Positions 4,958 to 31,918 of a stretch of 64,000 nt of DNA are shown here, piece after piece. The notes below the pieces were generated by a model. The model ran no database searches, had not been told where the DNA came from, and saw only the letters and a list, made by a program, of their open reading frames with translations. The stretch comes from Candidatus Contendibacter odensensis (lineage in GTDB: Bacteria > Pseudomonadota > Gammaproteobacteria > Competibacterales > Competibacteraceae): NCBI GenBank assembly GCA_002747185.1, contig PDTV01000004.1:291730-355729 (forward strand), in the 5' to 3' direction. Position numbers and translations under genes: made by a program. Positions within the stretch are counted from its first letter, which is position 1, and each line of letters begins with the position of its first letter.

Positions 4958-7900
4958 ATGACTGAAATTGCTAAAGAAATTGTGCCGGTCAATCTCGAGG
5001 ATGAGATGCGGCAATCCTATCTTGATTACGCCATGAGCGTGATTGTTGGGCGGGCATTGCCAGATGTGCGTGACGGTCTGAAACCAGTGCATCGGCGGAC
5101 ACTGTTCGCAATGAATGAGCTGGGTAATGACTGGAATAAGCCTTATAAAAAATCGGCTCGTGTAGTCGGCGATGTGATTGGTAAATATCATCCCCATGGT
5201 GATACAGCCGTCTACGATACCATCGTGCGTATGGCGCAGCCATTTTCAATGCGTTATGTGCTTGTGGATGGCCAGGGTAATTTTGGAAGTATCGATGGTG
5301 ATGCACCGGCAGCAATGCGATATTGTGTGACGGGCGGCACCCGAATTAAAACAGATAAAGGATTGGTAGCCATTCAGGATTTGGTCAGTCATTCAAAACC
5401 AGATAGTGAGCATTCATTAAATATTAATGTCCTGTCTCTATGTGGGAAAACAAATAAGGCTACCCGTTTTTTTAATTCGGGATATCACCCGGTCTTTCAG
5501 CTAAAAACCAAGGAAGGTTTTTGTATTGAAGGCACTGAAAATCACCCAGTTGCTGTGATAGCGACAGATTTAAATGGTAAGCCGGAATATGTCTGGAAGC
5601 TGCTCGGAAATGTGCAATCAGGTGATAAAATCATCATTGATAGAAGCCAGATTAGTCTCAACGATAAACCGTCTACAAATACTGAAGAAAATCTCGCTAT
5701 TGTTGCAGGTTGCTTGTTAAGAAATGGATTGACTGGTAACAATAAAATAAGTTTTTTAACGGATAGTGAAGCTTGTTTTCATCGTTTTGAAAGTGCTTAT
5801 CAACAAAGTATCGGTAACTATTTTTATAGTCACATACATGATCTGGAGTCAGGTACTCTGGTTTATGGTCTGAGTGTGCCTGAATTGGCAGAATTCTCCA
5901 ATTGTCCACTATATGCTGACTTGGTAAACATTAAAGATAACGCCAGAAAAATTCCTGCCTATATTTTTGCGGCTTCAAAACAAGCCCAAAAAATATTTTT
6001 GCAATATTTATTTGCCGGTTATACAACAGCTTTTGCATTAGATCAGAAGGCTACACATTTTCAATATGCTACCCGGAGCCAGCAATTGGCACAGGATGTT
6101 CAGCTGTTGTTGCTTGAATTTGGCGTTATTGCAACGATACATCATCTTGAAGAAAAACAGGGTTATACGGTTAGTGTTAGCGGCAGCTATAATATCGCCA
6201 GGTTTCATCAGAATGTTGACGTTGCGGCACTACGACTGGATCAGGAAAATGCTGTTATTCCTGATAAGGGAAGCTGTCTGCCATCCGCACTGTCATTGGC
6301 GATAAAGCTCGCATCCCATGTCGGTCATGGTGTATGGGAAAGCACAAAAAGATCCTGTTTTATAAAAGGTTTTAGTAGCCGTGAATCCACGATTTCAGGT
6401 TCTCCGGAAGCGGTACAGGCCACATATGGATATGCTGTTCAGCTTGTTAACCAGTTGCTTGCCAATAATTATTATTTTGCCACTGTTGACTCCTGTGAGC
6501 GGCAACATGATGAAAAAATTGTTTATTCAGTACGGGTAGCAAGCGACTGCCATTCTTTTGTGGCCAATGGTTTTGTTAATCATAATACCGAGATTCGTAT
6601 GGCGCATGTTGCGCATGAGTTATTGGCAGATCTCGATAAAAAAACGGTTGATTTTGTCCAGAATTATGATGAGTCGGAACAGGAACCGGTCGTCTTTCCA
6701 ACCCGATTGCCCAATTTGCTGGTTAATGGTTCTTCAGGTATCGCAGTGGGTATGGCGACGAACATCCCGCCGCATAACCTCGGCGAGGTCGTAGGTGCTT
6801 GTGTGGCACTCGTGGATGAGCCGAACTTAAGTATTGACGAATTGATGCGTTATATTCCGGGGCCTGATTTTCCAACGGCTGCGCTGATTCATGGCATCAG
6901 CGGTATCCGTGAGGCTTATCATACCGGTCGGGGGCGTGTGCAGATGTGCGCTCGTACCGAGATTGAAACGGATGAGTCGCGTGGCCGACAGGCGATTATC
7001 GTTAATCAATTGCCTTACCAGGTTAATAAGGCACGATTGATCGAGAAAATTGCCGAACTGGTTAAAGAGAAGAAGATTGACGGTATTGCAGAGTTGCGTG
7101 ATGAATCCGATAAGGACGGCTTACGGATTTATATTGAACTGCGACGTGGTGAAACGGCAGATGTGGTACTGAACAATCTTTTTAGATACACAGCCTTGCA
7201 AAGCAGCTTTGGCATTAACATGGTGGCGCTGGTCGAAGGCCAGCCGCGCCTGTTGAATCTCAAGCAGGTGTTGGAGGCTTTTTTGTCACACCGTCGCGAG
7301 GTGGTGGTACGGCGTACCGCTTTTGACCTGCGTAAGGCTCGTGAGCGTGCTCATATCGTTGAGGGCCTGGTCGTAGCACTAGTGAACCTGGATGCACTGA
7401 TTGCCCTGATTCGTGCTGCGGCTGATCCGGCCTCGGCACGTACCGCGTTACTTGAGCAGGTTTGGGTCGCCGGTTCGGTGACTGAATTATTATCACGATC
7501 CGGTGCAGCAGCATCGAGGCCTGATGATTTATCGACCGAGTATGGCCTGAATGAAGCCGGCTATCATTTTTCACCCATGCAGGCACAGGCTATTCTGGAT
7601 TTGCGCTTGCATCGGTTGACCGGACTGGAGCAGCAAAAACTGCTGGGCGAGTATCAGGAATTATTGGCGCGTATCCAGGATTTCCTGGAAATTCTGACCG
7701 TCCCGGAACGGTTGACAGCTGTGGTGCGTGCTGAGTTACTCGAACTTCTTGATCAATATGCGGATGTTCGCCGTACCACGATTTTGCCTGATGAGCGGAA
7801 TTTGAGTCTGGAAGACCTGATTAATGAGGCCACCATGGTGGTGACGCTATCCCATGCAGGTTATATCAAGGCGCAGCCGTTAACACTTTATCGAGCGCAG

Positions 7901-8857
7901 CGGCGCGGTGGTCGAGGTCGGGCAGCCACCGCTGTCAAGGAAGAGGATTTTGTCGATCAGTTGTTTATTGCCAGTACCCACGACACCATTCTGTGTTTTT
8001 CCAATCGGGGGAAGGTATATTGGAAAAAAGTGTATGAATTGCCACAGGCCGGTCGAGCTGCACGAGGCCGGCCCATTGTAAACTTGTTGCCGCTACAGGA
8101 AGGTGAGCGCATCAATGCCGTGTTGTCAGTGCGTGAGTTCGATGATGATCATTATGTGTTTTTCGCCACGGCAAACGGTACAGTCAAGAAAACGCCACTA
8201 TCGGCATATTCCCGCCCGCGTCCCGGCGGCATTATCGCCATTGATCTGCGTGACGGTGATCAGTTAGTAAATGTGGCATTAACACACGGCCAGTCTGATG
8301 TAATGCTGTTTAGCAATACGGGAAAGGTTTTACGTTTTTCTGAAACCGAGGTGCGGATAACAGGGCGTTCAGCGTGTGGTGTACGTGGCATCCGTCTGGA
8401 TGAGGGGCAACAGGTTATCAGTCTGATTGTTGTCAGTGAGGGTAATATTCTGACCGTTACCGAAAATGGTTATGGCAAGCGTACACCGGTTGAGGATTAT
8501 CCGCTTCGCAAGCGTGGCGGACTCGGTGTCATTTCCATTCAAACCTCTGAACGCAATGGCCAGGTCAATGGTGCGGTGCAGGTGGAAGGTGACCATGATG
8601 TCATGCTGATTACTGATGGCGGTACTTTGGTACGGACTCCGGTTGAGCAAATCTCGGTGGTCAGTCGTAATACACAAGGTGTCAAGCTGATTAACCTGCA
8701 TAACGGTGAAAAGCTCATCGGACTCGAAAGGATCGAAAACATTAATGGGCAGGATGCCGAGGATGTTGAGAGTGACGATGTGGCATCTGATGATGATCTG
8801 GATCCTGATGCAAACCGTACGACGTCCAATGAAGGTGTCGATAATGGCGATGATTGA
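4958..8857 (+). CDS. gyrA: DNA gyrase subunit A, precursor containing an intein
   Basis: A 1299-codon ORF that encodes GyrA interrupted by an in-frame intein at codons 123-543. Removing it leaves 878 residues, close to the usual length of about 875. The N-terminal extein has the family start [20 protein letters not shown], the quinolone-region [20 protein letters not shown] (threonine at the E. coli Ser83 position) and ends at the active-site tyrosine Y122 in AAMRY. The C-terminal extein resumes with [16 protein letters not shown], and the GyrA-box QRRGGRGR starts the DNA-wrapping domain. An acidic tail follows. Splicing must occur for the gyrase to work, because the insertion directly follows the catalytic tyrosine. 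serC, often found between gyrA and pheA, is absent. Confidence 0.97.
5324..6586 (+). mobile_element. GyrA intein (421 aa) with degenerate LAGLIDADG endonuclease domain
   Basis: The insertion begins with Cys ([19 protein letters not shown], block A) and has the block B TENHPV. It ends with the block F/G sequence [19 protein letters not shown], giving the terminal His-Asn; the following extein residue is Thr. The insertion point (AMRY/TEIR) is the same as that of the mycobacterial GyrA inteins as I recall them. The middle has the two endonuclease blocks in degraded form: VAGCLLRNG and YLFAGYTTA, where LAGLIDADG-type motifs would carry the catalytic acids. Splicing residues look intact, so I predict a splicing-competent but nuclease-dead intein. 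Its DNA is visibly richer in A+T than the exteins. Confidence 0.95.
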
Positions 8858-28384: not shown

Positions 28385-28678
28385 TCAGCTTGTTGTCGGC
28401 ACTTTGGTTCTTTGTCGCTCTCTCGATCCAATGTGGCTTTTCTTTTGGATCGAGAGGGGACAAGAGAGCCTGGTTGGAGTCTGGAGGAGAGGGATGAATG
28501 AAGCCCTGACCGTGCAGTCTTGTATTACTCCGGTAGTGTAAGCATTTCGGACTAATTGACCACCACAGCCTGCCACTGACCACAATCCTGTGGGCGGGAT
28601 CATGTCTAACGAAGAAGCTGGTCGTTTCACCCGCCTTGGCAATTTGTGGGGTAGGGCTAATTGTCCCTCCTGATCCTG
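28385..28678 (-). pseudogene. Decayed sixth repeat of the downstream secreted protein
   Basis: Directly after the stop of the 1079-residue gene, a different frame reads GSGGTISPTPQIAKAGETTS, the start of another C-terminal repeat. A further frame then reads AGCGGQLVRNAYTTGVIQDC, its end. One repeat unit is thus present but broken by at least two frame changes. The protein was probably longer once, or the sequence carries two indel errors. Confidence 0.75.
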
Positions 28679-31600
28679 CTAAGGTGCGGTGATAGTGCTA
28701 TGAAAGTGAACAGTGATTGTGCAGTCCTCGTCGATCACTCCAGTGGTATAGACATTATTCTCTGCTAATGTTCCACCACAGCCTGTCACGGATCCAATTA
28801 TATAGCCATAATCATGTGTGACGGTAAAACTGGCAGTGTCACCGGCATCAACCGTTTGCGAGGTGGGACTGATTGTTCCTCCTAAGTTGGTCGAGGTGCT
28901 AACCAGGAAAGTGGCATGTGTGAAATAAGCAGTGATTGTGCAGTCCTCGTGGATAGCTCCGGTGGTATAGACATTATCCTCTGCTAATGTTCCACCACAG
29001 CCTGTCACGGATTCAATCATATAGCCATTGTCATGTGTGACGGTAAAACTGGCAGTGTCACCGGCATTAACCGTTTGTGAGCCCGGGCTGATCGACCCAC
29101 CCGGTCCTGCCGAGGTGCTGATGAGGTAGTTGGCTTGGGTAAAGCTGGCAGTGATTGTGCAGTCCTCGTGGATAGCTCCGGTGGTATAGACATTACCTCT
29201 TAATGTTCCACCACAGCCTGTCACGGATTCAATCATATAGCCATTGTCATGTGTGACGGTAAAACGGGCAGTGTCACCGGCATTAACCGTTTGTGAGCCT
29301 GGGCTGATCGATCCACCCGGTCCTGCTGAGGTGCTGATGAGGTAGTTAGCTTGGGTAAAGTTGGCAGTGATTGTACAATCTTCGTGGATCACTCCGGTGG
29401 TATAGACATTATCCTCTGCTAATGTTCCACCACAGCCTGTCACGGATTCAATCATATAGCCATTGTCATGTGTGACGGTAAAACGGGCAGTGTCACCGAC
29501 ATTAACCGGTTGTGAGTCTGGGCTGATCGATCCGCCCGGTCCTGCCGAGGTGCTGACTAAGACAAAGGCCCGTCGGAATGTGGCATTGACTGTGCAGTTC
29601 TGGGTGATCGCTCCGGTAGTGTACGTGAGTTTTCGATTGAGAAAATCAAGCGGCCCAACGATTTTATTACCGTTACAGCCCTTCACTGACATAAGCTCAT
29701 AGCCATATTCATGTGTGATAGTAAAGCTAGTCGTTTCACCCGCATCGACCATTCTGGATGCCGGGCTGATATGTCCGCCAGGCCCTGCTGTAGCCTTAGC
29801 AGTAAATCGTTCTAGTTCTTCCTTTTCGGCATACCCGCTATCAGAATTGCTAAGGGGACTGCATCCTGAATCATTGCATGCTTTAACACTATAGAAGTAC
29901 ACCAAATCTAATTTCACAGATGTATCATCATAGAAACCTGAAGTGGTAGTACCAACAAGGGTGTTAATGTCATTAGTGATGCCAGAACGGTAGATTTCAT
30001 AAGATGAGGCACCCTCGACGGTATTCCAGGACACCCGAATGAAATCCGCAAAACTTCCATCACTGGCGCTGACATGGCTCGGTGTGGCGAGTGTATTGCT
30101 GTTATCTGTTTCAGGCGAAGCAACAGGGATCGGCGGTTGGGACTGTTCTGAGATAGCCGCTTGTGTTGCCGATTGCAAACAGGCGATACGATCACTGTTA
30201 TCCTGGCAAGGCGCTTCGCTGATATCTTCACCAAAGTTTAACCGCTGTGCGATTGCGGGAGGTAGATTATCGTCGGAATTATCGGCCTGAGGGATGCGCG
30301 CCTGCGCCAGACCCGCGAAAGAGCGGAGCAGGGGCGATTGGCACGCTTGCGGTGCAACAATACGGCTTAGACTCAAGCGTTCAGCGGCTGTTTTAACGGC
30401 ACACAGCGCCTCACCCGTAGCGACAGCACCCGAAAAAGCCATATTGGCCAGCAAGGCCTTGAGTGAAAAGCGCGAAATCGCATTATTCACCTGTGCTGTT
30501 TCCACAGGGGCCAACATCCGCATTGATGTTCCATCATCTTCACCCTGTCGAGCAGGCTGTGTCGCACCCCGCACCCGGCTGACAAGATCTTGCAGCGGTT
30601 TCAACAGGCCGGTTTCCACCGGCGTATTGTCTACCGGAGCACCCAGTGAATTACCGTCTGCATCGGTGAAACTGACCGTTACCGTATTGGCGGCTGTATC
30701 GTAATTGCTAAATTGCGCCTTTACGCCATTCGAATCGGTATAGACTGCCGGCAGGCCATTGGCTGCAAGGCTTACATCGGCGGCTTGACCGGTGGTGGTA
30801 TCGGTCCACGCCGTACCATTGACAGCAGTGGTTTCGCCGCTTGCGCCTTTGGCGACATAGACACCGATACTTTCCAGTAAACCGCTACCTAGGCCCATTA
30901 CGGCAAAATCGTTACGGCGGTCAGTTACTGCTGAAACCGTAGCAATTTTTTCACCAGTGGCTGTTGTTGTCTTGATCAGGAAATTCTGATGCGGCTCCGA
31001 CCAGCGGATTATGGTATGCTGTTTCTTGCTTGGAAAGTCAGGTAGCGCGAATGAGCCGCCGACACCGGTAATAAAATCCTGGCCAAGGGTGGCTACCGCA
31101 AAATTAACATTGGCAAACAGCACCCCATCCGCATAAGCTTTCAGGTTATGCACGCCATCACTGATGCTGTTCCAGTTAAACGTCAGACCAAAGCCATTGT
31201 TGTCGTCACCACAGAGCGATTGTGTATCACCCCGCTTGGTACCATATGCTGTAGGCCGCAATGCGCCACCATCAATACTGATTTCAACCCGCTCGGCATC
31301 ACACACCCAACCGCGAATCAAGCCGATACCACTTTCAGAAGACCCCTGTGAGGGCGATTCCAAAAACGTACCCGGCGCCACCGGAGGCTTAGCCACTGCT
31401 GGCACAGCGGTTTGATTGACAAAAACGAAATTTTGATGTGGTTCTGACCAGCGGACTGAAGGCGATGAGCCTGCCGCAGGAAAATCCTTCAGCTTGAACT
31501 GTCCCTTTAATCCATGGATAAAATTTTCCCCTAACGTCGTTACAGTAAAGTGGGTGTCCGCAAACTGTACGCCATCTGCATACGCTTTGATGTTATGCAC

Positions 31601-31918
31601 ACCATCGCCGATCTGATTCCAATTAAATGTCAGGCCGAAACCATTATCGGTATCGCCGCAAATGGATTGGGTATCCCCCCGCTTTGTCCCATACGCGGCC
31701 AGCCGCCGTTCACCGCCATCAATACTGATTTCAACCCGCTCGGCATCACACACCCAACCGCGAACCAGACCCACGCCGCTTTCGAAAAAAGTCTCCGATA
31801 TCGGTGATTCCAGATAGGCCTGTGCCTCGGCGGTCTGAATAAAGGGATGTGGCGACATCATTAGAAAAAGCACAAAAATACTACTTATCCTTTGAATGCA
31901 ATATTTTTTGATCATCAT
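28679..31918 (-). CDS. Large secreted repeat protein: two unknown modules, Fn3-like and five Cys-containing repeats
   Basis: 1079 residues. A signal peptide (1-32, ending TAEA) follows a good ribosome-binding site (CTGGAG). Two copies of a module of about 130 residues come next (about 35-167 and 184-320), each with RGWVCDAERVEISIDGG, a second Cys in a CGD motif, and WSEPHQNF at its end. A less ordered middle follows, then a fibronectin III-like domain (about 640-735, IRVSWNTVEGASSYEIYR). Five repeats of about 75 residues end the protein (GGSISPGSQTVNAGDTA, then FTVTHDNGYMIESVTGCGGT), resembling the InlB B-repeat-like bacterial repeat family. Each repeat has two cysteines that could form a disulfide. 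There is no membrane anchor or sorting signal, so it is probably exported or surface-bound. The role is unknown, and adhesion is a guess. Confidence 0.85.
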   Translation of the reverse strand: MMIKKYCIQRISSIFVLFLMMSPHPFIQTAEAQAYLESPISETFFESGVGLVRGWVCDAERVEISIDGGERRLAAYGTKRGDTQSICGDTDNGFGLTFNWNQIGDGVHNIKAYADGVQFADTHFTVTTLGENFIHGLKGQFKLKDFPAAGSSPSVRWSEPHQNFVFVNQTAVPAVAKPPVAPGTFLESPSQGSSESGIGLIRGWVCDAERVEISIDGGALRPTAYGTKRGDTQSLCGDDNNGFGLTFNWNSISDGVHNLKAYADGVLFANVNFAVATLGQDFITGVGGSFALPDFPSKKQHTIIRWSEPHQNFLIKTTTATGEKIATVSAVTDRRNDFAVMGLGSGLLESIGVYVAKGASGETTAVNGTAWTDTTTGQAADVSLAANGLPAVYTDSNGVKAQFSNYDTAANTVTVSFTDADGNSLGAPVDNTPVETGLLKPLQDLVSRVRGATQPARQGEDDGTSMRMLAPVETAQVNNAISRFSLKALLANMAFSGAVATGEALCAVKTAAERLSLSRIVAPQACQSPLLRSFAGLAQARIPQADNSDDNLPPAIAQRLNFGEDISEAPCQDNSDRIACLQSATQAAISEQSQPPIPVASPETDNSNTLATPSHVSASDGSFADFIRVSWNTVEGASSYEIYRSGITNDINTLVGTTTSGFYDDTSVKLDLVYFYSVKACNDSGCSPLSNSDSGYAEKEELERFTAKATAGPGGHISPASRMVDAGETTSFTITHEYGYELMSVKGCNGNKIVGPLDFLNRKLTYTTGAITQNCTVNATFRRAFVLVSTSAGPGGSISPDSQPVNVGDTARFTVTHDNGYMIESVTGCGGTLAEDNVYTTGVIHEDCTITANFTQANYLISTSAGPGGSISPGSQTVNAGDTARFTVTHDNGYMIESVTGCGGTLRGNVYTTGAIHEDCTITASFTQANYLISTSAGPGGSISPGSQTVNAGDTASFTVTHDNGYMIESVTGCGGTLAEDNVYTTGAIHEDCTITAYFTHATFLVSTSTNLGGTISPTSQTVDAGDTASFTVTHDYGYIIGSVTGCGGTLAENNVYTTGVIDEDCTITVHFHSTITAP
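28690..29815 (-). repeat. Tandem repeats of about 225 bp encoding the C-terminal repeats
   Basis: Five units code for the repeats. The three central ones are nearly identical at DNA level (for example TGTGACGGTAAAACKGGCAG recurs at regular spacing on the plus strand), while the first and last have diverged. This shows recent duplication or gene conversion. Confidence 0.88.

Follow-up and report, generated by a model that had tools for sequence, protein, structure and literature searches.

A paired immunoglobulin-like module on unrelated exported proteins of Competibacteraceae and Binatota, a possible adaptor to the cell surface or matrix

PPC (PF04151) is a C-terminal beta-sandwich accessory found on proteins that are exported, secreted proteases among them. 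Type IX secretion, which is typical of the Bacteroidota, has a C-terminal sorting domain (TIGR04183 and related models) that is likewise a C-terminal beta-sandwich common to unrelated secreted proteins. Export signals of type IX secretion include Ig-like C-terminal domains (PMC4804311). The module described here, encoded within 64,000 nucleotides of Candidatus Contendibacter odensensis DNA (the window), is similar to PPC as a C-terminal beta-sandwich accessory but belongs to a different sequence family, and the weak PPC matches in some carriers lie beside it rather than in its place. It differs from the type IX sorting domain in having no NCBIfam match, in occurring also at N-termini and in having hosts that are not Bacteroidota. 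A search for SprA of the type IX translocon matched none of 39 genomes, with control genomes giving no signal either. The module is closer to Big_7 (PF17957), with which it has in common an Ig-like fold and a similar motif order (P..G..SG...RGW, DG, G.H...A.DG), but to which it adds an invariant cysteine pair, a tail of about 35 residues and a mostly fixed tandem pairing. InlB B-repeats (PF18998) and PASTA repeats (PF03793) make up the C-terminal stalks of type A proteins, those with an N-terminal module pair; these stalks are partners of the module rather than relatives, and substitute for one another between lineages. Neither the fold class nor the general concept of an Ig-like accessory domain is novel. 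The complete module, the rule of its pairing and its distribution over exported proteins of Competibacteraceae and Binatota are in neither Pfam nor NCBIfam, and no description of them was found among open-licence papers.

The window gene lies on the minus strand (28679..31918), as do its parts and the elements just downstream of it, and encodes a modular secreted protein of type A with 1079 aa, delimited by the open reading frame list and by an alignment of 12 sequences comprising modules and core. A putative Sec-type signal peptide (residues 1-34, MMIKKYCIQRISSIFVLFLMMSPHPFIQTAEAQA; 31817..31918) has a charged n-region, a hydrophobic stretch and an AQA site according to a signal-peptide heuristic. 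It is followed by module copy 1 (residues 36-168; 31415..31813), with a Big_7-type Ig-like subdomain and a W-x-E-x-x-Q-N-F tail, and by module copy 2 (residues 186-318; 30965..31363), both delimited by profile. The two copies, of about 132 aa each, were about 69% identical over 125 residues, with RGWVCDAERVEISIDGG, CGD, AYADGV and WSEPHQNF common to both. Each scored >200 bits against a profile built on relatives, placing the duplication far above chance.

Downstream of the modules, a core region of about 265 aa (residues 321-585; 30164..30958), located by sequence comparison and AlphaFold, was beta-rich at first and helical after, with cysteines in CAV..ACQSP and APC..CL. Next came an Fn3-like domain (residues 611-693; 29840..30088) that matched PDB 3mpc (E=1.6e-4), and five InlB B-type repeats (residues 707-1079; 28682..29800) that matched PF18998 in five stretches with 67.6 bits against a gathering score of 23.6 (E=9e-19). 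Each of the five repeats contained a cysteine pair, and R2-R4 were almost identical. Past the stop codon, the remnant of a sixth repeat was found in two other frames (28500..28676), reflecting either a formerly longer gene with a decayed C-terminus or an assembly error. A terminator-like inverted repeat (CTCTCGATCCAA/TTGGATCGAGAG; 28420..28456) was recognised in the sequence further downstream of the gene. Matches of the protein to CtsR, A2M_BRD, LPD30 and RodZ were dismissed as chance hits to repetitive or low-scoring stretches. The reading frame, the duplicated module, the Fn3-like domain and the five cysteine-pair repeats had all been proposed in a sequence-only reading of the window and were borne out here; that reading did not mention the conserved core between the modules and the Fn3 domain. 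Its description of the gene as the largest accessory gene in the window needs qualifying, as there is a longer open reading frame of 1299 aa at 4958-8857.

The core was confined to type A proteins of Competibacteraceae: except on partial contigs, it was not seen apart from the module, and 13 of the 39 family genomes, counting that of the window, had it. After the core, type A proteins carried InlB repeats, PASTA repeats or neither. Three type A genes stood in tandem in genome G034 (L026, 4746-14007), the first one fragmented by frameshifts, a recent amplification. The assembly of the window's genome, 1.25 Mb in size and 62.8% complete, contained a second module-type gene at the end of contig C12 (L137, 2760-2945), truncated at the contig end, in which a cysteine-less module directly followed the signal peptide.

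An alignment of 92 module sequences had 11 invariant columns, both cysteines included, and 23 further columns that were nearly invariant. The module consists of an Ig-like part of about 95 residues and a short beta tail of about 35 residues that finishes in W-x-E-x-x-Q-N-F-V-I. AlphaFold predicted a single N-terminal module as an Ig-like sandwich with high confidence (pLDDT 94), and the module pair together with the core at pLDDT 86. Foldseek searches against solved structures returned generic Ig domains only, with TM-scores ≤0.40 among the best 50 matches, so that the Ig-like assignment of the model is one of fold class only. The whole model of the window protein gave nothing beyond generic tandem-Ig matches (TM ~0.1).

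The window module scored 16.1 bits against Big_7, below the Pfam gathering score of 24.1, and only isolated full-length relatives passed this cut-off, with 25.5-28.3 bits. Similarity to Big_7 was found at E<1 for 11 of 24 members and at E<0.01 for 1 of 92. The cysteine pair was present in all 92 cysteine-type modules, and a sister subfamily was found from which both cysteines are absent together, a pattern that fits a candidate disulfide between them. This cysteine-less subfamily matched Big_7 at E down to 8e-15, and its alignment to the profile of the cysteine type spanned 130 columns, full length and tail included (hhalign E=1.7e-13). Since it links the two, the first ~95 residues of the cysteine-type module are assigned, from profile comparison and modeling, to a diverged Big_7-type Ig domain. 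None of the 92 modules matched any NCBIfam model, sorting domains included, at E≤0.01, and, whether queried with single sequences or with profiles, Pfam, NCBIfam and PDB gave no sequence match to the module over its full length. The domain had been called unrecognised; this remains true in that no curated library names it, but not for its first ~95 residues. No described family with a known function emerged, as Big_7 carries no specific function.

A search of 59 kin genomes with module 1 gave matches in 23: the window's own, 21 of the 36 other Competibacteraceae, and G052, the only matching genome from another family. Likewise, when 369 genomes were drawn evenly from the class, the module turned up at E<1e-12 in none but G052 and members of the window's family. 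Among 84,980 species genomes scanned, the module was confirmed at 128 places. The 77 loci listed among these were mostly from Competibacteraceae and Binatota, with a few from Chromatiaceae and others, and three Binatota genomes had 32, 27, and 32 module hits. Module relatives were absent from the plasmids and viral contigs searched, and a link to mobile elements was rejected. The genes flanking the window gene were not next to type A genes in other genomes, and the LMW-PTP and sulfite-exporter-like neighbours were non-adjacent in other genomes of the family; genomic context therefore yields no functional clue. According to the sequence-only reading, the neighbourhood explains neither export nor function; a route of export is available, given the protein's own Sec-type signal peptide and the type II secretin genes (GspD) located elsewhere in the same genome. 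Type II secretins were discarded as an explanation of the module's distribution, being present in nearly all family members, module-free ones too.

Far from being a lone oddity of the window protein, the module recurred in other genomes as a two-copy accessory with many unrelated domain partners. The module was combined with PqaA-like (PF10142), trypsin-like, thermolysin M4, arylsulfotransferase, GDSL lipase, glucose/sorbosone dehydrogenase (GSDH), Spondin_N, LRR and beta-propeller domains, and cysteine-less modules occurred with reprolysin, C-type lectin and BACON domains. The pair was C-terminal in most enzymes and N-terminal in type A proteins. Four giant LRR proteins of 1824-2020 aa (L096, L104, L106 and L112), close copies on one Binatota chromosome, had the pair at the C-terminal end. 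By one heuristic, a signal peptide was found in 85 of 89 module ORFs and in 96 of 375 (26%) control ORFs from the same loci, and a later hydrophobic segment was detected in only 3 of 59 module ORFs.

Exactly two module copies were present in 75 of 96 module ORFs, a count drawn from loci that match the module well and that does not describe the divergent single-module proteins of Binatota. Several of the remaining ORFs were incomplete because of a contig end, a frameshift or a run of N, and true single-module proteins occurred in Binatota and some Gammaproteobacteria. Where two full modules of the cysteine type were present, the linker was 17-30 residues long in 62 of 63 proteins and 50 in the exception, and most C-terminal pairs ended 3 residues short of the stop. 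The two copies of a protein were closer to each other than to any other module in the set in 27 of 70 cases, and the module tree had many supported sister pairings of copies from one protein, so homogenisation or re-duplication of the copies has recurred, with their number staying at two. Three cysteine-less pairs were 100% identical even in DNA, which may also be an assembly effect. Within each of two adjacent genes at locus L038 (4802-7432 and 7788-10334), the compared part of the cysteine-less modules was 100% DNA-identical, and modules were ~75% identical between the genes, a pattern due either to concerted evolution or to an assembly effect.

The PqaA-like enzyme exists both with and without the pair, which is interchangeable on it. 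The enzyme was found in 25 kin genomes, 17 with C-terminal module sequence (some copies being incomplete where a contig ends or an N run intervenes) and 8 without. The catalytic part stopped at a common point, '...YAGTAC' or nearly so, followed by the pair, a stop codon or another tail; in G007 and G030 (L153, L160), repeats of the form GDWxGxGKxxVGxFR with paired cysteines replaced the pair. Enzymes with and without the pair were both found within genera g8 and g11. Other module proteins were present in 13 of the 17 genomes with a tailed enzyme, and all eight genomes with a pair-less enzyme were devoid of the cysteine-type module anywhere (Fisher p=4.6e-4, relatedness ignored). This all-or-none pattern is valid for the cysteine type only, as some tail-less genomes carry the cysteine-less subfamily.

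A two-copy module on unrelated exported enzymes suggests a common way of fastening them to the cell surface or slime. Because the tail is common to unrelated exported proteins, occurs at either end, is dispensable and replaceable, and is mostly in two copies, the pair is best read as a bivalent adaptor that would fix exported proteins to the producer's surface or matrix, a reading to which we assign a probability of about 0.5. The export signals, the confident Ig-like fold with its invariant cysteines, and the C-type lectin and BACON partners of the cysteine-less modules also speak for it. Two observations run counter to it: single-module proteins exist, so that two copies are not obligatory everywhere, and the module matched no known carbohydrate-binding family by sequence (Pfam, NCBIfam) or fold (Foldseek). 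A more elaborate version seems unlikely. In it, Competibacteraceae and Binatota would have a protein-display system not described before, in which the pair is the tag that a dedicated surface receptor or matrix polymer recognises, and loss in a lineage would leave every protein untagged together; this simultaneous loss is hinted at by the all-or-none pattern on PqaA-like enzymes.

The main rival to an adaptor is that the pair acts through its conformation as a signal for sorting or export. Either the type II machine or a surface-display machine not described before would read it, in a role comparable to that of the type IX C-terminal domain. The usual place of the pair at the extreme C-terminus with its 3-residue end, the export function described for type IX Ig-like domains (PMC4804311), and the co-variation of the cysteine-type module with the pair on the PqaA-like enzyme over 25 genomes would all suit such a signal. 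We nevertheless regard it as somewhat improbable, since type A proteins have N-terminal pairs, close relatives have a tailless PqaA-like enzyme with the signal peptide retained, no NCBIfam model matches, sorting domains included, and a dedicated partner gene was not identified. It is quite unlikely that the modules are inert Ig spacers keeping catalytic domains off the surface: spacer number usually varies, whereas the module mostly stays at two, its conservation, with 11 columns invariant and 23 nearly so over 92 sequences, is more than a spacer should need, and at a free C-terminus, where it often lies, there is nothing to space, even if Ig-like folds often serve as stalks and Fn3 and InlB repeats are present in the window protein too. 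The position directly after the catalytic domain in many enzymes could point to an intramolecular chaperone or pro-domain that stabilises or matures the attached enzyme, but the module is also found on unrelated folds and non-enzymes, and the PqaA-like enzyme exists without it, making this very improbable.

Under the adaptor reading, proteins with the module pair would leave the cytoplasm by Sec export, probably followed by type II secretion. Outside, the pair would bind, as its ligand, some shared constituent of the surface or extracellular matrix of the producer itself. The bound pair would retain its attached domain close to the cell or within the aggregate, and this domain may be enzymatic, an LRR array or a scaffold of repeats. 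The window protein would represent the scaffold type, with its module pair, conserved core and stalk of Fn3 and InlB repeats, the stalk of some relatives having PASTA repeats, and most likely links matrix components or cells.

Competibacteraceae are glycogen-accumulating bacteria that abound in activated sludge and granules, and to our knowledge little is known of how their matrix proteins are assembled. The module marks a share of the exported proteins in this family and in the uncultured Binatota, and accounts for the tails of a set of enzymes left unannotated by family databases. It offers a sequence handle for listing candidate surface or matrix proteins, together with a concrete hypothesis of what they may bind.
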